Shown: positions 2,078 to 20,279 of the stretch, one piece after another
Layout of the letters: every line of letters starts with the position of its first letter
Numbering within the stretch: position 1 is the first letter of the stretch
NCBI RefSeq assembly: GCF_001953985.1
Contig: NZ_MBEI01000009.1
Span: forward strand, 1-64,000
Source of the DNA: Mycobacterium colombiense
GTDB taxonomy: Bacteria > Actinomycetota > Actinomycetes > Mycobacteriales > Mycobacteriaceae
Length of the DNA stretch: 64,000 nucleotides
Direction of reading: 5' to 3'
Notes under the pieces: model-generated
What the model was told of the DNA's origin: nothing
Databases searched by the model: none
What the model saw: the letters and a program-made list of their open reading frames with translations, nothing else
Position numbers and translations under genes: made by a program

Positions 2078-3658
2078 GTGGTGTTGCTGGACGGCGCATC
2101 GAGCCACCCGCGGGAGCTGCTGGGCAACAAGGGCCACGGCATCGAGGCGATGCGCCGGCACAACCTGCCGGTGCCGCCGGCGTTCTGCATCACCACCGCG
2201 GTGGGCCTGCGGTATCTCGCCGATCCCGCGGCGACCATGGACGCCGTCTGGGACGACGTGCTCGACCGGATGCGCTGGCTGGAGGCGCAGACCGCACGCA
2301 CGTTCGGCCGGGGCCCGCATCCCCTGTTGGTCAGCGTGCGCTCCGGAGCCACCCAGTCCATGCCGGGCATGATGGACACCATCCTGGACCTCGGCATCAA
2401 CGATGACGTCGAGCAGGCGCTGGCGGCCACCGGTGACCAAGCGTTCGCCCGCGACACTCACCGGCGGTTCGCAAACATGTATCGGCGCATCGTCGGCGTC
2501 GCCGAGCACGAATCGGTGCCGTCGGACCCGTACGCGCAGTTGCGCGCCGCCATCGAGGCGGTATTCGCCTCGTGGAATTCACCCCGTGCGGTCGCCTATC
2601 GCGCCCACTACGGAATGGACGATCAGCACGGCACCGCCGTGGTCGTGCAGGCGATGGTGTTCGGCAACCATGGTCCCAATTCCGGTGCAGGGGCGTTCTT
2701 TTCCCGCAATCCGATCACCGGCGACAACGAACCGTTCGGCGAATGGCTGCCCGGCGGCCAGGGCGACGACGTGGTGTCGGGGTCGGTCGATGTCGAACCG
2801 ATCGCCGCGCTGCGTGACGAACAGCCGGCCGTCTACGACGACCTGATCGGTGCCGCCCGTGCCTTGGAACGGCTCGACTCCGACATCCAGGAGATCGAGT
2901 TCACCGTCGAGGACGGCATGCTGTGGCTGTTGCAGACGCGAGCGGCGGAACGCTCGGCACAGGCGGCGGTGCGCACGGCGCTGCAGCTGCGGCACGAGGG
3001 ACTCATCGATGACGCGGAGACATTGCGGCGCGTGACCCCGGCGCACGTCCAAGCCCTGCTGCAACCGGCGTTGCAGCCCGAAATACGTTTGGCGGCACCG
3101 CTATTGGCCAAGGGATTACCGGCGTGCCCGGGCGTGGCGTCCGGCACGGCGTACACCGATGTCGACGAAGCGCTGCGCGCCGCCGATCGCGGCGAGCGCG
3201 TGATCCTGGTGCGCGATCACACCCGGCCCGAAGACGTATCGGGCATGCTGGCCGCGCAGGGCATCGTCACCGAGGTCGGCGGCGCCTCCAGCCATGCGGC
3301 GGTGGTCAGCCGCGAACTGGGCCGGGTGGCGGTGGTGGGTTGCGGCCAGGGGGTCGCGGCAGCGCTGGCCGGCAAGCACATCACCGTCGACGGCGCCGAA
3401 GGCGAAGTGCGCGAGGGCAATCTGAGCCTGTCCGCGTGGTCGGAAGACGACACGCCCGAACTGCGCGAACTGGCCGACATCGCACGGCGGATCAGCCCGC
3501 TGCGTGCCCACGCCGCGGGCGACCACATGCGACTGGACGACAGCTCCGAGGCCGCGGTGCGCGCCGCACTGAACAGCGGGCAGGCGGACGTGGTGTCGGC
3601 GACGCCGTTGATCGTGATGCTGACCGCGCTGCGCCTGACACCGGGATCCGCATCGTGA
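2078..3658 (+). CDS. ppdK: pyruvate, phosphate dikinase, short two-domain form
   Basis: 526 residues. Residues 1 to about 330 form the ATP-grasp (PPDK_N) domain, with GNKGHGIEAM, LPVPPAFCITT and VSVRSGATQSMPGMMDT. Residues about 340-450 form the phosphohistidine swivel domain, with the phospho-acceptor motif GGASSHAAVV and catalytic His406. The C-terminal PEP/pyruvate-binding TIM barrel of full-length (about 870-residue) enzymes is absent, so ATP-dependent self-phosphorylation is possible but pyruvate chemistry needs another subunit or does not occur. M. tuberculosis PpdK (Rv1127c) is similarly short. The GTG at 2078 is the first usable start; no good Shine-Dalgarno is seen, so the N-terminus is uncertain. 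It overlaps the next gene by 4 bases. Confidence 0.88.
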   Translation: MVLLDGASSHPRELLGNKGHGIEAMRRHNLPVPPAFCITTAVGLRYLADPAATMDAVWDDVLDRMRWLEAQTARTFGRGPHPLLVSVRSGATQSMPGMMDTILDLGINDDVEQALAATGDQAFARDTHRRFANMYRRIVGVAEHESVPSDPYAQLRAAIEAVFASWNSPRAVAYRAHYGMDDQHGTAVVVQAMVFGNHGPNSGAGAFFSRNPITGDNEPFGEWLPGGQGDDVVSGSVDVEPIAALRDEQPAVYDDLIGAARALERLDSDIQEIEFTVEDGMLWLLQTRAAERSAQAAVRTALQLRHEGLIDDAETLRRVTPAHVQALLQPALQPEIRLAAPLLAKGLPACPGVASGTAYTDVDEALRAADRGERVILVRDHTRPEDVSGMLAAQGIVTEVGGASSHAAVVSRELGRVAVVGCGQGVAAALAGKHITVDGAEGEVREGNLSLSAWSEDDTPELRELADIARRISPLRAHAAGDHMRLDDSSEAAVRAALNSGQADVVSATPLIVMLTALRLTPGSAS

Positions 3659-6538: not shown

Positions 6539-7015
6539 TCACCGCTGCAGCGCGGCGGCCCGCTCCAGCTCGGCGATGACGATCTTGCGCATGCCGTACA
6601 TCGCGTTGGTGGCGGCCGCCGCCCGCGTGCGGTCGGGGTCGCCGATCAGTTCGTAGAGCCGGTCCGGGACGATTTGCCAGCTCATCCCGAAGCGGTCTTT
6701 GAGCCAGCCGCATTGCGATTCCTCGCCCCCGTCGGTCAGCCGGTCCCAGTAGTAGTCCACCTCGTCCTGGTCTTTGCAGTGGATCGTGAACGAGACCGCC
6801 TCGGTGAAGTGGAAGTGCGGACCGCCGTTGATCCCGATGAACCGGGTGCCGTCCAGCACGAAGCTGCCGGACAGGACCCTGCCCGGCTCCCCCGGTCCGG
6901 CGTCGGTGGTCTGGTTGAAGCCCTCGATGTGGGAGTTGGGGAACACCGAGGTGTAGAACCGGGCGGCCTCCTCGAGGTTGTCGTCGAACCACAACGACGG
7001 GGTGATCGATGGCAT
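6539..7015 (-). CDS. VOC/PhnB-like metalloenzyme-fold protein
   Basis: 158 residues, ATG preceded by an ideal AAGGAGG. It contains SLWFDDNLEEAARFYTSVFP, FIGINGGPHFHFTEAVSF and CGWLKDRFGMSWQIVP, the standard beta-alpha-beta-beta-beta signature of the PhnB (3-demethylubiquinone methyltransferase-like) branch of the vicinal oxygen chelate superfamily. Members bind a divalent metal and do varied chemistry; the annotation as a methyltransferase is historical and not supported by sequence. Monocistronic, divergent from bpoB. Confidence 0.85.
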   Translation of the reverse strand: MPSITPSLWFDDNLEEAARFYTSVFPNSHIEGFNQTTDAGPGEPGRVLSGSFVLDGTRFIGINGGPHFHFTEAVSFTIHCKDQDEVDYYWDRLTDGGEESQCGWLKDRFGMSWQIVPDRLYELIGDPDRTRAAAATNAMYGMRKIVIAELERAAALQR

Positions 7016-10594: not shown

Positions 10595-11419
10595 ATGCCC
10601 GATCCGCTACACCTCACGGTCTACATCCTGGCCGGGATCGCCGCGATCGAGGGTGTCGCGTTGATCGTGCTGTGGCGGTTGCTGGTGCGCAGTCAGCAGG
10701 AGCTCAAGGAGTTGCAGCAGAGGACCGACACCCGCAATCAGCTGCTGTCGGGGGGTCGCGAGGCCGTCAAGAGGGTGTGGAACACCGCGAACCTGATGCG
10801 CAAGGAGGGCTTCGGCGCGGCCGTCCGCAGCAGCATCGAGGACCTGGCGGACTGGGCCGAAGTCGAGCGACCCGACCTCGCCCGCGTCACCCCGGACGGC
10901 CGGGTGGTCATCTTGTTCTCCGACATCGAGGAGTCCACCAAGCTCAACGAGCGGATCGGCGACCGCGCGTGGGTCAAGCTGATCAGCTCGCACGACAAGC
11001 TGGTCTCGGACCTGGTGCGACGACGGTCCGGTCATGTGGTGAAGAGCCAGGGTGACGGCTTCATGATCGCGTTCGCTCGCGCCGAGCAGGCGGTCCTGTG
11101 CGGTCTCGACCTGCAGAACGCGTTGCGAAAGGACGCTAATCGCAAGCGGCGTGAGGAGATTCGCGTGCGGATCGGCATCCACATGGGGCGCTCGGTGCGT
11201 CGTGGCGATGATCTGTTCGGCCGCAACGTCGCAATGGCGGCACGGGTTGCCGCACAAGCGGTCGGCGGCGAGATTCTGGTGAGTCAGCCGGTGCGAGACG
11301 CGCTTTCCGATTCTGACGGCATCCGGTTCGACGATGGTCGCAATGTGGAGCTGAAGGGCTTTTCGGGCACCTACCGCTTGTTCGCCGTCGAGTCTCCGTC
11401 CGATTCCGAGCCGGACTGA
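10595..11419 (+). CDS. membrane-anchored class III nucleotide cyclase
   Basis: 274 residues from the ATG at 10595 (AAAGGA nine bases upstream). Residues about 7-30 form one membrane helix ([19 protein letters not shown]), then a charged linker, then the cyclase domain from about 100. Metal ligands are Asp110 (LFSDIEES) and Asp154 (KSQGDGF); Lys150 is the adenine-selecting Lys. The helix that carries the transition-state Asn and Arg reads [11 protein letters not shown]: Arg217 is present, but the usual Asn four residues before it is Ala213. M. tuberculosis Rv1120c at this locus is, as far as recalled, truncated, whereas this copy is full length. Confidence 0.87.
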
Positions 11420-11580
11420 ACGCCGTCCCCGTTGTATTCGGCCAGCCGCTGATGCAGACGGTCGCGGACCTCGTCGGCGGTGTATGCGCGTCGCTTGCGT
11501 TGGTCGCGCACGACCAGCGCGCCCCCCGCGACGACACCGGCGGCGCCGGCCAATCCCAGCCACTTCCACACATTGCGCAT
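11371..11580 (-). CDS. small single-pass membrane protein
   Basis: 69 residues: [24 protein letters not shown] is a signal-anchor, followed by basic RDQRKRR and an amphipathic [18 protein letters not shown] helix. This layout recurs in short mycobacterial proteins of unknown role. Its last 49 bases overlap the 3' end of the convergent cyclase gene. The Shine-Dalgarno is weak. The overlap could mean that only the N-terminal part is under selection. Confidence 0.62.
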
Positions 11581-11735
11581 GACACCAGGCTATGCGCAGC
11601 CGGGTCGTTATGGCCCGCTTGTGATTGACTTGTGTGCCCGCAACATTCGGCAACGCATCGCGCGTGACGTACCGGCGGGCTCATATTGGCGACGACAGCA
11701 ACGAAAGTTGCGGCGGCGAACGGGCTTACACGAAG

Positions 11736-12416
11736 ATGCTCACTTTGAACCAAGCGCTCGAACAGACCCGCACCGGCGACCTCTGGTTGTTTCGCGGCGG
11801 TTCGGGACCCGACCGCGCCATCCAGACGCTGACAAACAGCCCGGTGAACCACGTCGGGATGACGGTGGCCATCGACGACCTGCCGCCGTTGATCTGGCAC
11901 GCCGAACTCGGCGACAAGCTCGTCGACGTGTGGACGGGAACGAATCACCGAGGCGTGCAACTCAACGACCTTGCGCAGTCGGTGTTGCAGTGGTCGCAGC
12001 GCTACCACCAGCGGTGCTGGCTACGCCAGCTGACCCCGCCGGCCAACCGGGAGCAAGAGAACACCCTGCTGCGCGTGATCGCCCGGATGGACGGCACCGC
12101 ATTTCCCACCACCATGCGCCTTACCGGCCGGTGGCTGCGAGGTCGGCTGCCGAACGCCTACGACTGGACACGCGGAATCCCGTTCGTGGACAAGAAAATT
12201 CGCGAATCGACGCAGCGACGAAAGGAGCGCCAGAAGCTCGGCCTGGAGGTGGCCTACTGCGCGGAAACGGTGGCGATCACCTACGAGGAAATGGGGTTGC
12301 TCACCACGGAGAAGTACTCCAACTACTTCGACCCGGGCTCGTTCTGGAGCGGTGACAGGCTTCCGCTGTCACCGGGCTACGCCCTGGGCGACGAGATCGA
12401 GATCGCGGTCGGCTAG
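11736..12416 (+). CDS. permuted papain-fold (YiiX/NlpC-P60-like) protein
   Basis: 226 residues from the ATG at 11736; a TTG further up (11625) would add 37 residues without recognisable homology. TRTGDLWLFRGGSG, then SPVNHVGMTVA with His39, and finally VAYCAETVAITYEEMG with Cys175, give the circularly permuted order (GDxxLF, HxG, then Cys in a helix) of YiiX/YaeF-type cysteine hydrolases. These act on amide or ester bonds in peptides or lipids; the substrate is unknown. Probably the counterpart of M. tuberculosis Rv1118c. Confidence 0.75.
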   Translation: MLTLNQALEQTRTGDLWLFRGGSGPDRAIQTLTNSPVNHVGMTVAIDDLPPLIWHAELGDKLVDVWTGTNHRGVQLNDLAQSVLQWSQRYHQRCWLRQLTPPANREQENTLLRVIARMDGTAFPTTMRLTGRWLRGRLPNAYDWTRGIPFVDKKIRESTQRRKERQKLGLEVAYCAETVAITYEEMGLLTTEKYSNYFDPGSFWSGDRLPLSPGYALGDEIEIAVG

Positions 12417-13851: not shown

Positions 13852-14214
13852 TTACCGATTAGGCGCTACCGCGGCCGCGTTCGCTTTCCGCCGTCTCGCG
13901 GTCGATGCCGGCTTGCTCCCGCTTTGCGCGCGCTCGCACAGGCTTACCCTGTCGTCTTTCCGCAGCAGTCGTTCGCGCTCGTGCTCCGCGGCCGTGCCCT
14001 CGCGTTCGTCCGCGCGCTCCCGTTCGTCTGCCACCCGCTCGCGGTCATCCGCTATCCGCTCACGCTGGCCGGCGACCCGGTCTCTTCGCCCCGCCTGGAA
14101 TTCGCGTCGCTTGACGGCAGCCTCACGCCGGGCGAGGGCCTCTTCGCGCTCGTCGAGCGCATGAGCCCGCCGTTCCGGCTCCGCGGGCGGCTCGACACGA
14201 TCCTCGGCGGCCAC
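13852..14214 (-). CDS. highly charged heptad-repeat helical protein (paralogue of 18501-18866)
   Basis: 120 residues from a GTG with AGGGGTG upstream. After a short acidic, proline-containing start, the protein is almost only E, R, A and D. It has 7-residue periodicity such as RERIADDRERVADERERADERE, which predicts a long solvent-exposed helix or coiled coil. The segment DEREGTAAEHERERLLRKDDR is closely matched in the protein encoded at 18501-18866, so the two are paralogues within 4.5 kb. The C-terminus is basic (SKPASTARRRKANAA). No enzymatic motif; function unknown. Confidence 0.7.
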   Translation of the reverse strand: MAAEDRVEPPAEPERRAHALDEREEALARREAAVKRREFQAGRRDRVAGQRERIADDRERVADERERADEREGTAAEHERERLLRKDDRVSLCERAQSGSKPASTARRRKANAAAVAPNR

Positions 14215-14776: not shown

Positions 14777-15442
14777 TCAGCAGCAGTCGCGGCCGCGCCA
14801 GGCCTCGATCCCTTCCGAGAAGGCAAGGCCGGCGATGCCCAGTCCGACCACCGGATCCAGCCACCACCCGCCGGGCCAGACGGCGAGGACGGCAAGGGTG
14901 CACAGCACCGCGGCGGCCTGCGCCGCGCACAGGTAGTTCTGCGTGCCCTCGCCGGCAGTCGCTTGTGAGTCCAGCCGTGCGCCCAATTGTTGTTTGGCCC
15001 AACCCAAAAGCGGCATGACCACCAATGCCAGAGCGGTCAGGGCGATGCCGATGACCGAAGTCTCAGGGCGCGCTCCGGTGAGCAGATTGTGCACCGATTC
15101 CGCAGCGATGTAGGGAGCGATGAGCCAAAACGAAACCGCGATACCGCGTTGCGCTTGCCGCTCGGCCGTCTCCGACAAGGTGCGCGAACCGGTGAACCGC
15201 CACACCACGATCAGACTTGCCAGTCCCTCGACTGCACTGCCGAGCGCCCAGCCGATCAAAGAGATTGAGCCCGTTGCGAATCCCTGCCAGAGGCCAAGCG
15301 CACCCTCAGCGCACATCCACAGCAGACTGGCCCAGGCCAGCCAGCGGGCCGCGCGGGCAGCCCGTACCCATCCGGTGTCGCGAGTGGATGCAACGCCACG
15401 GGTGCCGCAGCACTCACAACCCGGAGCGCACGCTTCGCTCAC
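14777..15442 (-). CDS. cation-efflux-like six-helix membrane protein with Cys-rich ends
   Basis: 221 residues. The N-terminus has a cysteine cluster (CAPGCECCGT) and the C-terminus ends GRDCC, both plausible soft-metal ligands. Between them are about six hydrophobic helices, with SISLIGWALGSAVEGLASL and WWLDPVVGLGIAGLAF resembling the TM2 and TM6 regions of cation diffusion facilitators (CDF). The cytosolic CDF dimerisation domain is missing. Start GTG at 15442, no clear Shine-Dalgarno. Metal transport is inferred from the fold and Cys motifs; a sensing role is possible. Confidence 0.68.
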   Translation of the reverse strand: MSEACAPGCECCGTRGVASTRDTGWVRAARAARWLAWASLLWMCAEGALGLWQGFATGSISLIGWALGSAVEGLASLIVVWRFTGSRTLSETAERQAQRGIAVSFWLIAPYIAAESVHNLLTGARPETSVIGIALTALALVVMPLLGWAKQQLGARLDSQATAGEGTQNYLCAAQAAAVLCTLAVLAVWPGGWWLDPVVGLGIAGLAFSEGIEAWRGRDCC

Positions 15443-15514: not shown

Positions 15515-15913
15515 TCACACTCCGAACTTGGCCCGCGCATCGTCGGTCACCGGAGTGAACAGGTTGACCAGGTTTCCGTCCGGATCCCGGAACAACAACG
15601 CGCGGTTTCCCCAGGGCATCGTTGTCGGCGTCGTCACCACATCTGCGATGTGCTCGCGAAGCCGCTCGTACTCGGCGTCCACGTCCTCGACGATGAACTC
15701 CAGGATGGCGCTGCGGTTGGCCGCGGGCTCGGCGGACCCGTCTCCAAACAGCGGGACGGTTTTGTCGCTGCCGATGGCCAGCGTGCCGATCGGTGTCGGG
15801 ATCTCGGCGAACAACTCGTTGCCCCAGATCGCCGTGACCCCGGTGACCGTCTCGTAAAAATCGACGAGCCGCTTGACGTCGGCCGTGATGATTCGGGTCG
15901 AAATGAACTTCAT
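15515..15913 (-). CDS. glyoxalase/VOC superfamily protein
   Basis: 132 residues from the ATG at 15913 (GAGAGGGA upstream). MKFISTRIITADVKRLVDFY, SAILEFIVEDVDAEYERL and RALLFRDPDGNLVNLFTP are the paired beta-alpha-beta modules of the glyoxalase/bleomycin-resistance/dioxygenase fold, with Glu in LEFIVED and Glu/Asn-type ligands near the end. No specific reaction can be named. It is the most ordinary gene inside the accessory island. Confidence 0.85.
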   Translation of the reverse strand: MKFISTRIITADVKRLVDFYETVTGVTAIWGNELFAEIPTPIGTLAIGSDKTVPLFGDGSAEPAANRSAILEFIVEDVDAEYERLREHIADVVTTPTTMPWGNRALLFRDPDGNLVNLFTPVTDDARAKFGV

Positions 15914-16057
15914 GCAGTCGGTCCCTCTCAATGTCTGAGCACCGAATGCTAGGCGCCGCCTCCGACAACTCGGGCGCACCGGCAAGGTCCTATCGAGACC
16001 TGGACATACGCTGGTCGCCGCCAAGTCGCAGTTGCGGCGAAACTGGTCCGACGCCCG

Positions 16058-17245: not shown

Positions 17246-17626
17246 TTAGCCTCGTGCCTTCAGCGGCGCCCCTAGCCGCTGTCCGACGGAGGCGGCGTTG
17301 CGCTTGTCGAAAAACTCCGTCCACGAGGCGATCTCGGGATTTTTCTTAAGCAGAGCCCTGCGCTGGCGCTCGGTCATGCCGCCCCAGACACCGAACTCGA
17401 CCCTATTGTCGAGCGCCTCCGCTCCGCACTCTCTCATCACAGGGCAGCGACGGCAGATGACCGTAGCCTCACGTTGTTTGGCACCGCGCACAAAAAGTGC
17501 GTCCGGATCTGTTCCCCGACACAGCGCCTTCGAAACCCAAGCGCGATCGTTCTCGGCTGTGGCGCCCGGCGTGTTTTTTACGAGCGCAAGATTTGTGGGC
17601 CGCGCGGCCCGACTCTCTCCTGACAA
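17246..17626 (-). CDS. WhiB4-like iron-sulfur regulator
   Basis: 126 residues from a TTG at 17626. This start is chosen because AAGGAA lies seven bases upstream and the resulting MSGESRAARPTNLALV aligns with the start of WhiB4. Cys36, Cys58, Cys61 and Cys67 (LC, then CRRCPVMREC) are the [4Fe-4S] ligands, and GVWGG at 79-83 is the WhiB turn. WVSKALC, TDPDALFVRGA and MTERQRRALLKKNPE are diagnostic of the WhiB4 branch, a redox-responsive regulator in M. tuberculosis (Rv3681c). Because whiB4 lies elsewhere in other mycobacteria, this is probably an additional, island-borne copy. The longer frame to 17839 runs through a repeat and is unlikely to be used. Confidence 0.85.
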   Translation of the reverse strand: MSGESRAARPTNLALVKNTPGATAENDRAWVSKALCRGTDPDALFVRGAKQREATVICRRCPVMRECGAEALDNRVEFGVWGGMTERQRRALLKKNPEIASWTEFFDKRNAASVGQRLGAPLKARG

Positions 17627-17810
17627 CGAGCTATTCCTTCGTCCAGGCGCGGCCGCAAACTGTGCGACCGCGTGATACCTGATGCTGGGATGTGTGCCAC
17701 ATCGGCCCGCACGTGTGACTTGACCCCTGGTGCCCAAGCTATGCGAACCGGTACCCATTGCGCAAGCATTTTCTGGCACGGACGTACCTTTTTTTGGTGC
17801 CATGGCCGTC

Positions 17811-17843
17811 CTAGTCGTCGAATCGGACCTCCACCACATCGCC
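17811..17843 (-). repeat. ychF 3'-end repeat, copy A
   Basis: On the minus strand this stretch reads GDVVEVRFDD followed by TAG. That is a diverged version of the YchF C-terminus (GDVVEFRFNV). Over 24 bases it differs from the ychF copy (19215-19238) at three positions by eye. It begins a few bases beyond the stop of the cation-efflux-like gene (17848) and is in a different frame from it. Confidence 0.7.
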
Positions 17844-17847
17844 GGCC

Positions 17848-18504
17848 CTAGTCATCGGTGAAATCGACTGCCTTGCCGCGTATGGCTGCAACGGCCTTGA
17901 GGCACAGCGCGCCGGCGGGAGCTGCGACTACAGCCGCTATTGCAAGTGCGAGAACCGAGTCGAGCCAGAAGAAGCGTCCGGTCAGCGCGATCACCGCACC
18001 AGCGGCGGCAACCGCCGCGGCCGCGGCTGCGTCGGCGAGCGTGTCCAGCAGTACGGAACGCATGTGAAGGTCCTCGTTCGCGGCCGAGGCGCCCAGCACC
18101 CACGCACCCGCCAGCAGGACTGCCATCGTCACCGCGCTGACAATCAACATCGGCAGGCCGTGTACCTCGGGAACTCCGCGAGCCAGCCGGCTTATCGACT
18201 CCGCCGCTATCAACGCTGCCACGACCAACAGCGCACCGCCGTTGATCAGGGCGACCACAGGTATCGCCAGCGAACGCCAGGCATAGGCCGTGCGGTCCCG
18301 GACAGTTACGGCGATCAGGCCGAGAACCAGTGCGACGGAATCCGCCGACGTGTCACCGGCTGCCGCGATGACGCCAACCGAATGTGCGGCCAGGCCGACG
18401 ACAACCAGCGCGGTTATCAGGGAAACGTTGAGGCCGAGGACGATTCCCAGCCGCCTGCGTTGACTCACCGGCCTACACGTTGAACCGGAACTCCACCACG
18501 TCAC
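17848..18504 (-). CDS. truncated cation diffusion facilitator-like membrane protein
   Basis: 218 residues with six hydrophobic helices. Two CDF-type metal sites are visible: GDTSADSVALVLG in TM2 and LLDTLADAAAA in TM5, each DxxxD, where typical zinc exporters have HxxxD. FFWLDSVLALAIAAVV matches the TM6 motif. The usual C-terminal cytosolic dimerisation domain is absent; the protein ends just after TM6. The GTG at 18504 overlaps the stop of the upstream gene (GTGA), so translation is coupled, but this start sits inside a ychF-end repeat; a GTG 12 codons later is an alternative. Metal specificity unknown. Confidence 0.75.
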   Translation of the reverse strand: MTWWSSGSTCRPVSQRRRLGIVLGLNVSLITALVVVGLAAHSVGVIAAAGDTSADSVALVLGLIAVTVRDRTAYAWRSLAIPVVALINGGALLVVAALIAAESISRLARGVPEVHGLPMLIVSAVTMAVLLAGAWVLGASAANEDLHMRSVLLDTLADAAAAAAVAAAGAVIALTGRFFWLDSVLALAIAAVVAAPAGALCLKAVAAIRGKAVDFTDD

Positions 18505-18505
18505 C
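18473..18505 (-). repeat. ychF 3'-end repeat, copy B (canonical YchF terminus)
   Basis: The minus strand reads SGDVVEFRFNV followed by TAG, the standard C-terminus of YchF proteins, yet it lies about 700 bases downstream of the present ychF stop. The 24-base core starting GAACCGGAACTC (plus strand) differs from the ychF copy at three positions, and its first 12 bases are identical. The stop of the helical protein and the start of the cation-efflux-like gene both fall within this repeat. Confidence 0.8.
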
Positions 18506-18866
18506 GCTCGTCGTGATCACTTCTTCTTTCGGTCGCGGCCATCTCACGGGCGACGTCCGCCTCCTCACGGCGCTCACCGGCCGCCGCTCGATCTAGGCGA
18601 TCGCTTTCGCGGCGCAGTCGTTCGCGTTCGCGCTCCGCAGACGTGCCCTCGCGTTCATCTGAGAGCCGCTCGCGCGTATCGGCGATCTGTTCTCGCTCGT
18701 CGGCGATCCGTTCTCGCTCGTCAGCAAGTCGATCACGCTCGTCAGCCAGATGCTCGCGTAGTTTCAGTTGAGCAGCGCGATGCTCTAGTTCAGCCTCGCG
18801 CGCGTCCAGCACGGCGGTCCGCTGTTCGAGGTCGTCCGGCACGCCGCCGACAGACTCAACAACCAT
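18501..18866 (-). CDS. highly charged heptad-repeat helical protein (paralogue of 13852-14214)
   Basis: 121 residues from the ATG at 18866, with a strong GAGGAGG upstream. After LEQRTAVLDAREAELEHRAA, it runs through about seven 7-residue units of the form ADERERI/LADERDR, so a long charged helix or coiled coil is expected. SDEREGTSAERERERLRRES closely matches the paralogue at 13852-14214. Cytosolic; no catalytic motif. Coupled by a 4-base overlap to the cation-efflux-like gene, which suggests a shared task, for example a regulatory or scaffold subunit (inference). Confidence 0.75.
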   Translation of the reverse strand: MVVESVGGVPDDLEQRTAVLDAREAELEHRAAQLKLREHLADERDRLADERERIADEREQIADTRERLSDEREGTSAERERERLRRESDRLDRAAAGERREEADVAREMAATERRSDHDER

Positions 18867-18971
18867 GACCCTCCTCGGCTGCTGCTTAACCGAGACGCGC
18901 TCCATGGAGCACTGAAACTCGACGATTAAGGGTAATCCCAATTAACGCGTTTATGCAGATTGGGGAGCCAG

Positions 18972-19205
18972 ATGGGCAGCCACTTCCTCGAGAATGCCGT
19001 CGATGACGCCAGGGCGCGCTCCAGCGTCCTCCAAGCCACCGTGCGCGAACGATGCCAAAAATCGCGCGAGCTGATCGAATCGGCAAACGAGACGCTAGGT
19101 CGAGCTGATATGCGGATTCGTCATTCACTTCGCCGACTACTCAGATGCGACCTCGACTCGGCCGTTGCCAAGGTCAAATCAACGCGCGGCGGCTTTACCA
19201 CCTGA
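18972..19205 (+). CDS. small helical protein, uncertain
   Basis: 77 residues from the ATG at 18972, which has GGGGAG five bases upstream. LENAVDDARARSSVLQATVR, then RELIESANETLGRADMRIRH, predict one or two amphipathic helices similar to other short mycobacterial proteins of unknown role. It is divergent from the heptad-repeat gene (105 bases apart) and its 3' end overlaps the 3' end of ychF on the other strand. Lack of homologue evidence keeps confidence modest. Confidence 0.42.
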   Translation: MGSHFLENAVDDARARSSVLQATVRERCQKSRELIESANETLGRADMRIRHSLRRLLRCDLDSAVAKVKSTRGGFTT

Positions 19206-20279
19206 CGTTGTTTGGAACCGGAACTCGACCACATCGCCGTCGGCCATGACGTAGTCCTTGCCCTCCATGCGAACCTTGCCGGCCGCCTTGGCCGCCGCCA
19301 TCGACCCCGCGGCGATCAGGTCGTCGTAGGAGACGATTTCGGCCTTGATGAAGCCCTTCTCGAAGTCGGTGTGGATCACCCCGGCGGCCTTCGGCGCGGT
19401 GTCGCCCTGATGAATTACCCACGCGCGCGCCTCTTTTGGGCCCGCCGTCAGATAGGTCTGCAACTTCAGAGTGTGAAAACCCGCCCGCGCCAACGCATCT
19501 AACCCACGCTCGGTTTGTCCGATGGACTCGAGCAGCTCGGCCGCCGACTCGTCGTCCAGCTCTTGCAGTTCGGCCTCGATCTTCGCGTCGAGGAATACCG
19601 CGTCGGCGGGTGCGACCATCGCGCACAGCTCGGCCTTGCGGGCGTCGTCGGTCAGCACGGACTCGTCGGCGTTGAACACGTACAGAAACGGCTTGGTGGT
19701 CATCAGGTTCAGCTCGCGCAGCAGTGAGGTGTCGGCACCGGAAGCAAACAGCGTCTTGCCCGAGTTCAGCACAGCTTCCGCGGCCACGGCCGCCTCGTGC
19801 ACCGGCTTGCGGTCCTTGTTATTGCGGGCTTCCTTCTCCAGCCGCGGGACGGCCTTCTCCAGCGTCTGCATGTCGGCGAGGATCAGCTCGGTCTCGATCA
19901 CCTCGATGTCGGAGGCCGGATCGACTTTGCCGTCGACGTGCACGACGTCGTCGTCGGCGAACACCCGCACCACCTGGCAGATCGCGTCACACTCGCGGAT
20001 GTTGGCCAGGAACTTGTTGCCCAGCCCGGCGCCCTCGGACGCGCCCTTCACGATCCCGGCAATGTCGACGAACGTCACCGGCGCCGGCACGATCCTCTCG
20101 GAATCAAACATTTCGGCCAGCTTGTCCAGCCGCGGATCGGGCAGCGGGACGACGCCCTCGTTGGGCTCGATCGTCGCGAACGGATAGTTGGCCGCCACCA
20201 CGTTGTTCCGGGTCAACGCGTTGAACAAGGTCGACTTGCCGACGTTGGGCAAACCAACTATTCCCAGGCTCAGGCTCAC
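19179..20279 (-). CDS. ychF: redox-regulated ATPase YchF with an altered C-terminus
   Basis: 366 residues from a GTG. GLPNVGKST (9-17) is the P-loop; DIAGIVKGASEGAGLGNKFL is the switch II region; NADE is the NxxE nucleotide motif that favours ATP in this Obg-family member. The C-terminal TGS domain is present. YchF proteins normally end GDVVEFRFNV; here the frame reads GDVVEFRF and then QTTSGGKAAAR, 11 foreign residues replacing the final two. This makes it 9 residues longer than the M. tuberculosis protein (357, from memory). The normal ending is found 700 bases downstream. YchF binds ribosomes and modulates the oxidative stress response. Confidence 0.95.
   Translation of the reverse strand: MSLSLGIVGLPNVGKSTLFNALTRNNVVAANYPFATIEPNEGVVPLPDPRLDKLAEMFDSERIVPAPVTFVDIAGIVKGASEGAGLGNKFLANIRECDAICQVVRVFADDDVVHVDGKVDPASDIEVIETELILADMQTLEKAVPRLEKEARNNKDRKPVHEAAVAAEAVLNSGKTLFASGADTSLLRELNLMTTKPFLYVFNADESVLTDDARKAELCAMVAPADAVFLDAKIEAELQELDDESAAELLESIGQTERGLDALARAGFHTLKLQTYLTAGPKEARAWVIHQGDTAPKAAGVIHTDFEKGFIKAEIVSYDDLIAAGSMAAAKAAGKVRMEGKDYVMADGDVVEFRFQTTSGGKAAAR
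19215..19238 (-). repeat. ychF 3'-end repeat, copy C (within ychF)
   Basis: The last conserved codons of ychF (GDVVEFRF). The plus strand starts GAACCGGAACTCGACCAC. Homologous copies at 18473-18505 and 17811-17843 lie in the same orientation. After this point the ychF frame diverges from its relatives, so the sequence change in ychF begins exactly at the repeat edge. Confidence 0.8.

Follow-up and report, generated by a model that had tools for sequence, protein, structure and literature searches.

The locus downstream of ychF in Mycobacterium colombiense raised the question of why the 3' end of one conserved gene is repeated there, with a small gene between successive copies. The stretch analyzed here (the window) comprised positions 1 to 64,000 of contig NZ_MBEI01000009.1 (assembly GCF_001953985.1), and an initial annotation of its sequence had proposed serial att-type integration at the end of ychF. 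This proposal was supported and extended by an empty site in a relative (L006), by homology boundaries at the repeats and by a serine recombinase at the same locus in other genomes (L numbers are our labels for loci and contigs, G numbers for genomes). The repeats in the window are copies of the ychF end which border two small gene units, probably inserted by site-specific recombination with a large serine integrase (LSR) acting in trans as the predicted agent. What had not been foreseen was that the units are of integron size, mostly contain one open reading frame (ORF) and shuffle between species, and that ychF has two types of ending.

Copies of the ychF end in the window

Three copies of the ychF 3' end were confirmed on the minus strand (A, 19215-19239; B, 18482-18506; C, 17820-17844), with spacings of 733 bp (A-B) and 662 bp (B-C). 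Over 25 bp, copies A and B were 88% and 84% identical to copy C, which was the most decayed. The odd YchF tail that had been pointed out was also found, the protein ending in GDVVEFRF followed by QTTSGGKAAAR. Copy B encoded GDVVEFRFNV and a stop codon, copy C encoded GDVVEVRFDD and a stop codon, and the TGA of the heptad-repeat ORF was part of copy B, in agreement with the annotated ORF ends inside the repeats. The repeats had been described as one 24-base core; the copies were real, but the single core was not, and two half-sites were distinguished instead, the right one (TGGAGTTCCGGTTC...) nearly constant and the left one variable.

A degenerate pattern built from the three window copies was searched in the genome of the window (5.6 Mb, both strands, up to 3 mismatches). 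Five matches were obtained, the window copies with 0 mismatches and 2 isolated ones with 3; no further copy was found within 2 mismatches, and the reversed control pattern gave 0 matches in this genome. A chance repeat was rejected on the basis of this search and of the one-sided, same-strand placement of copies across 91 ychF loci (see below). A regulatory or terminator role of the repeat was not favoured, as the copies mark insertion boundaries. The features of the locus were as follows.

19179..20279, minus strand: ychF, whose C-terminal tail is replaced (FRF-QTTSGGKAAAR in place of FRF-NV)
19200..19250, minus strand: junction A, attL-like, centre between 19229 and 19228
18496..19228, minus strand: unit 1, 733 bp between centres, missing at the L006 empty site
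18501..18941, minus strand: heptad-repeat ORF, 146 aa, cargo of unit 1, stop codon in junction B
18960..19205, plus strand: divergent 81-aa ORF in unit 1, small and without a Pfam match; may or may not be coding
18472..18515, minus strand: junction B
17834..18495, minus strand: unit 2, 662 bp centre to centre
17848..18504, minus strand: cation-efflux family ORF (PF01545, E 1.9e-13), cargo of unit 2, probably with its true start within the unit near 18468
17810..17850, minus strand: junction C
17246..17839, minus strand: WhiB-family ORF (PF02467, E 2.2e-23), flank directly beyond junction C
15515..16024, minus strand: glyoxalase-family gene, synteny marker

An empty site in a related strain

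An empty-site relative, the kind of strain by which the insertions were to be checked, was found in L006 (Mycobacterium sp. 852002-40037_SCH5390672), which lacked the 733-bp unit between copies A and B. Its ychF carried the native FNV-stop, and the efflux gene followed immediately. In the BLASTN comparison, the window and L006 were 92% identical over the 624 bp that ended with the core, and the match resumed at core B for 687 bp (78%). The two matches overlapped by 25 bp in L006, which corresponded to the core and left a 733-bp insert in the window. When the window flanks were joined, the alignment with L006 was gapless through the core (2 mismatches in the left half, and a one-base gap just after). 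The overlap at the core showed that unit 1 was inserted as a 733-bp segment with the core at its borders, and that the right half of copy B is the former ychF ending. Unit 2 was also discrete: its 3' end was shared with L006 (+661), and the right neighbour beyond the core differed. Additionally, the glyoxalase gene lay 3.3 kb after the ychF core in the window and 117-118 bp after the core in L010 and L030 (M. triplex and M. genavense).

Distribution of the copies in the genus

A 27-nt matrix built from the native ychF end detected 45-47 extra copies at 91 ychF loci (thresholds 14-20), all of them downstream and on the same strand, with 0 upstream or on the opposite strand. These loci remained after 25 of 116 sequences had been dropped in which the YchF ending was not read on the plus strand (window pieces, minus-strand loci, L043, L060 and L081). 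A matrix of the replaced tail, which was weaker, found 8-14 copies downstream on the same strand and 0 upstream, with 1 on the opposite strand at thresholds 16-22 and 6 at 14; with an earlier matrix of 24 nt, the counts were 33 downstream, 1 upstream and 0 on the opposite strand. The distances between copies were 403 to 1825 bp in 61 of 74 cases, with 6 shorter and 7 longer.

At least 2 copies were present at 28 of the 77 named loci, including two of Nocardia (L070 and L085). The named loci were unselected and provided the rate given here; a larger set of 95 loci (3 of 98 were dropped for the same reason as above) included 17 G loci, most of which had been chosen for several copies among the matches listed. 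The G genomes may overlap with the named loci, and L055 and L143 were apparently one genome. The core copy at L035 (+5677) was exceptional in that the repeated part of ychF extended about 30 bp further upstream and contained a short internal deletion.

Units shuffled as wholes between species

The matches listed for the unit ORFs (up to 8 per ORF) lay downstream of ychF in 226 cases and upstream in 8, in other species and at other positions; the named loci span up to 10 kb on each side of ychF, and the G loci less upstream. Among pairs of loci with a common right flank from the core onwards, 13 of 22 had unrelated left flanks. Conversely, the right neighbours differed in 15 of the 16 pairs with a common unit 3' end, and the exception was one genome seen twice. 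Homology boundaries fell at downstream cores in 34 of 460 cases in one count (random mean 9.1, maximum of 500 draws 20) and in 30 of 558 in another (random mean 10.8, maximum 23), an approximately threefold enrichment which exceeded all 500 random draws. A boundary coincided with 41 of 70 downstream cores, in a count that excluded L143 and L129. The flank pairs and this enrichment bore out the earlier expectation that the repeats map to points of divergence between species. These results showed that short, mostly one-ORF units bounded by the ychF-end site are present or absent as wholes, with neighbours which differ between species. One unit was found in two species, after a native ychF ending in one of them and after a replaced tail in the other (L018, 0-1023; L035, 0-1033). 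A 5-bp stretch of the right half distinguished the two versions, which would fit a reversion of the tail.

The anatomy of 60 units (duplicates removed, spacings of 350-2000 bp kept) was compared with that of 20 length-matched control sets, the ORFs being selected in both by the same heuristic of third- versus second-position GC content. A single selected ORF was present in 43 of 60 units, compared with 23-35 of 60 in the controls, and the ORF fill was 0.78, compared with 0.49-0.63. The ORFs ran in the direction of ychF in 63 of 84 cases (controls, 34-53 of about 83), and the median distance from the last stop codon to the next core was 27.5 bp (controls, 50.5-105). The mean GC content was 61% in the units versus 68% in the 3 kb upstream of the core.

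The 87 unit ORFs matched 70 Pfam families altogether, and 25 of these were the source of the following counts: Glyoxalase_6 (7), ParE toxin (5), Phd antitoxin (4), DUF1801 (4), SnoaL_2 (3) and methyltransferase (3). As the glyoxalase gene has long been a neighbour of ychF, some of the glyoxalases counted in units may be that gene. In PADLOC, 9 families were matched, each in 1-3 unit ORFs. In L037, ychF was immediately followed by a PIN-domain (VapBC-like) unit, and matches to this unit occupied the same position in L021, L029 and L075. For the cargo of unit 1, matches to the heptad-repeat protein were found in 44 of 148 genomes, some of them perhaps unrelated coiled coils; a ychF-end core lay within the fetched stretch at 11 of 30 such loci, the window's own included, and the names of 7 relatives were uninformative. 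A second, diverged match to this protein was located further out in the window (13894-14190, minus strand). By eye, the ORF at 14777-15442 (minus strand), in the same region as the efflux unit, also resembled a cation transporter.

One clade of large serine integrases at ychF

A search of other strains for a recombinase at this locus had been proposed, and a serine recombinase was found there in other genomes. In genome G213, a 15.4-kb element extended from ychF to a second core beside an LSR gene. The core also adjoined a large serine recombinase in the viral contigs L123, L124 and L126, and the domains PF00239 and PF07508 were identified in the recombinases of L123, L124, L126, L129, L245 and L248. 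LSR matches at E 1e-40 or better were obtained in 112 of 396 genomes of the genus. Among the 30 loci listed, 16 had an LSR at least 54% identical to that of G213, and at 15 of these the core lay in a constant orientation, 24-71 bp from the aligned LSR start; the other 14, with an identity of 45% or less, had no core beside the gene. In the maximum-likelihood tree, from which the short sequence L234 was left out, 17 ychF-site LSRs were placed on one branch (100/99) that also contained L219 and L229 and excluded 13 other LSRs. The ychF-site label required 3 changes on this tree (shuffled mean 10.9; 0 of 500 shuffles as low). At the level of sequence, these results showed that elements carrying one LSR clade are inserted at the ychF end, the predicted attB of that clade.

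The 14 complete elements, with both ends in view, were 7.5-17.3 kb long, and that of L238 contained a further core. The LSR elements began inside ychF, and the tail was replaced at all 15 clade loci in which the ychF end was in view; in the general set, 18 of 95 ychF ends (G213 included) had a replaced tail. Among 10 selected proteins, with ORFs listed for 5 of the 14 elements, Prim-Pol/AAA_25 was found in L129 and L236 and AAA_25 in L245 and L244. The ychF-site serine element of L248 (G035) encoded a capsid protein, a terminase and the integrase, and is a candidate capsid-forming satellite. An HTH_17 protein of the LSR elements is a candidate directionality factor.

The serine integrase of L126 matched only itself among the viral contigs, in which an attP-type tail with the right spacing gave 0 matches. 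CGGAAC-N2-GGTSGAGTTCCG occurred in 6 viral contigs, whose ORF lists showed neither ychF nor an integrase next to the site. When phage records were queried with the ychF gene, the best 20 of 251 matches consisted of unannotated faecal contigs carrying ychF itself at the top, and short weak matches otherwise.

Architecture of the att sites

In the complete elements, the left arm (attR side) and the right arm (attL side) mirrored each other. Of 14 left and 14 right attP arms, 12 on each side carried an AACGT- or CAACAA-like motif at a distance of 18-19 nt from the centre; shuffled arms gave at most 3 (left) and 5 (right) in 1000 draws, the motif list having been drawn from these very sequences. 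The CAACAA type was found in the left arms of L239, L240, L244, L246 and L249, whose right arms carried CAACAA or CAACCA. In the right half of attB, the motif lay 14 nt from the centre in 13 of 14 attR sites and in 72 of 95 ychF ends, so that the native ending was the commoner one. According to PMC3783163, the outer (ZD) motif of serine integrases is shifted 5 bp inward in attB, and the spacing of our predicted attP and attB arms appeared to be the pattern described there. The difference in motif spacing suggested that the two YchF endings are two half-sites, the native FNV-stop an attB half and the longer tail an attP half. In the window, junction A combined the native ychF attB half on the left with a right half of attP type (AACGTC motif 19 nt from the centre) and was therefore classed as attL-like. 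Junction B, with a left half from unit 1 that was no clear attP arm and the native attB half with FNV-stop on the right, was classed as attR-like.

Proposed mechanism

An LSR element begins inside ychF, where it gives the protein a new tail (attL), and ends at a second core beside its integrase gene (attR). In the mechanism that we propose, a small unit would travel as a circle with one site, and the integrase from an LSR element in the same cell would recombine this circle with the attB of ychF. Movement of the units in trans is inferred from the sites which they share with the elements. The newest unit would land next to ychF, and older units would be displaced outward, preceded by the old ychF ending. 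Unit 1, with the heptad protein, would then be the newer insert in the window and unit 2, with the efflux protein, the older one.

Several observations weigh against this mechanism. The genome of the window contained no LSR of the clade at E 1e-40, and clade LSRs (at least 54% identity) were found in 16 of 396 genomes, so they were rarer than the arrays (28 of 77 named loci). At L219 (G352), one of the clade loci, no core lay beside the LSR gene; this genome did carry a replaced ychF tail (L250). Of the left halves of 74 downstream junctions, 15 were scored as an LSR attP arm, with a matrix seeded with 11 of these same 15, another 15 as a ychF half and 44 as neither, and both downstream junctions of the window (B and C) were among the 44. 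The motif was present at the expected distance in the left half of 15 of 71 distinct downstream junctions. No circular unit was seen, core C was decayed, and the distance from the core to the first ORF in the 60 units was no different from the controls (median 68.5 vs 52-96). Most ychF genes, including many followed by units, kept the native FNV ending; the tail must therefore often revert, or some units arrived by another route.

The broader reading of these arrays is put forward tentatively, with chances that we judge a little short of even: a serine-integrase integron, in which the ychF end would serve as the entry site for arrays of single-gene cassettes, LSRs would be supplied in trans by satellites, and the YchF tail would be replaced with each insertion. 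The same guarded estimate covers its scope, which would comprise the mycobacteria and at least two Nocardia.

Alternative explanations

The units could instead be remnants, if serine-integrase satellites or prophages had integrated serially and later deletions had left only cargo genes between the att sites. Complete LSR elements of 7.5-17.3 kb do occupy the ychF site, three LSR elements had a further core 0.8-1.0 kb beyond attR, and a piece of a tyrosine integrase was found within one array (L130), all of which would fit such a history. We nevertheless consider it unlikely. In tblastn searches (E 1e-5), 0 of 87 unit ORFs matched inside the 14 complete elements and many matched in the stretches to the elements' right, which suggested that the units are not decayed copies of the elements; their origin by internal deletion of LSR elements was rejected on the same result. 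No LSR match was found in the units, which also recurred as wholes between species, and most of their spacings (61 of 74) fell within 403-1825 bp, mostly with one ORF whose stop codon was near the core.

About as improbable, and if anything slightly more so, is the insertion of the units by a tyrosine recombinase through a core of about 29 bp of the ychF end, a target which the serine elements would share independently. The ychF-like left half in 15 of 74 downstream junctions, together with further junctions which share its inner part by eye, points in this direction. A tyrosine integrase gene or remnant lay directly beyond the ychF end or a core in L126 (1386-2552), L051 (about 11098-12285), L130 (about 3070-3290) and L261 (G066). 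About 42 bp of the ychF end was also present in the viral contig L128 (about 6830-6900), which contained a tyrosine-integrase ORF and a weak inverted copy nearby, and in L127 (about 145). On the other hand, relatives of the L126 integrase were found at 14 loci of the genus with a core beside only 1, a decayed gene, and the genome of L051 had a single core. The L126 element was therefore a weak candidate for the general agent. Furthermore, the replaced ychF tails (18 of 95) followed the attP spacing of serine integrases. A second integrase class, of the tyrosine type, may perhaps target the ychF end as well.

Ordinary homologous or illegitimate recombination, by which stretches beginning with the ychF end would have spread with no dedicated recombinase, is very improbable: mycobacteria do exchange DNA and ychF itself would supply the upstream homology, but the boundaries concentrated at a core of about 25 bp, too short for homologous exchange to be expected, and the copies were downstream and on the same strand.

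Comparison with known systems

Insertion by a serine integrase in trans remains our preferred explanation, and it would make the ychF end a place to look for accessory genes (toxin-antitoxin, glyoxalase-like and defence-like) moving between mycobacterial species. The analysis also provides a predicted attB/attP pair for one serine-integrase clade, with an attB of about 40 bp, an attP of about 50 bp and a central GT at which they would be joined, and a case in which mobile DNA appears to rewrite the end of a conserved nucleotide-binding protein (YchF) repeatedly. No report of ychF as a mycobacterial integration site or of a cassette array there was found in the literature, as covered by titles and the beginnings of abstracts. 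In M. abscessus, 29 attB sites have been named and a phage-inducible chromosomal island (PICI) with a serine integrase has been described; the main text of this report, in its available portion, neither mentioned ychF nor described an array of small units (PMC10654092). Mycobacterial prophages and PICIs resemble the ychF-site elements as integrated satellites with serine integrases, the L248 element with its capsid and terminase included. The ychF-linked prophage of Streptococcus pneumoniae lies upstream of the gene, at its promoter (PMC6375853).

The units themselves also resemble other small modules. The pdif (Xer) modules of Acinetobacter plasmids are small, contain no recombinase, often encode toxin-antitoxin systems and are bounded by XerCD tyrosine-recombinase sites of 28 bp. 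They share with the proposed units the movement in trans of recombinase-less modules, but their sites are plasmid XerCD sites, whereas ours is the end of a chromosomal gene.

The closest analogues appear to be integron cassettes and the staphylococcal cassette chromosome (SCC). SCC elements insert at rlmH (orfX) through the Ccr large serine recombinases and accrete in tandem, with a direct repeat at each junction, and some of them contain no recombinase. The ychF arrays would share with them the serine recombinases, the insertion at the 3' end of a housekeeping gene and the tandem accretion with a repeat at each junction. They differ in the target, ychF rather than rlmH, and in size, as the units are mostly 0.4-1.8 kb with one ORF and SCC elements are tens of kb.

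Integrons consist of small one-ORF cassettes with the stop codon near the recombination site; whole cassettes are shuffled, arrays may occur without a recombinase, and the cargo includes toxin-antitoxin, glyoxalase, SnoaL and unknown genes. Likewise, the ychF units formed rows of small, mostly one-ORF, mostly one-direction (63 of 84 ORFs) putative mobile cassettes sharing a site. An integron integrase over the TIGR02249 cut-off was found in 0 of 118 genomes, the window's included, and in none of 14 named control genomes, so that the search had no positive control. Folding of the attC type was assessed over 70 nt at each of the three window junctions, on both strands, and was no better than in shuffles (z of 0.06 to 1.28). 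With neither an integron integrase nor a folding site, the ychF array would work like an integron array and is not an integron. The textbook platform for collecting genes is the integron with its tyrosine integrase, and if our reading is true, an array built by a serine integrase at a gene end would be an independent solution, in a genus setting in which no integron integrase passed the family cut-off in the genomes searched. The ychF arrays also differ from integrons in the candidate recombinase, a large serine integrase, and in the site, the 3' end of a gene.

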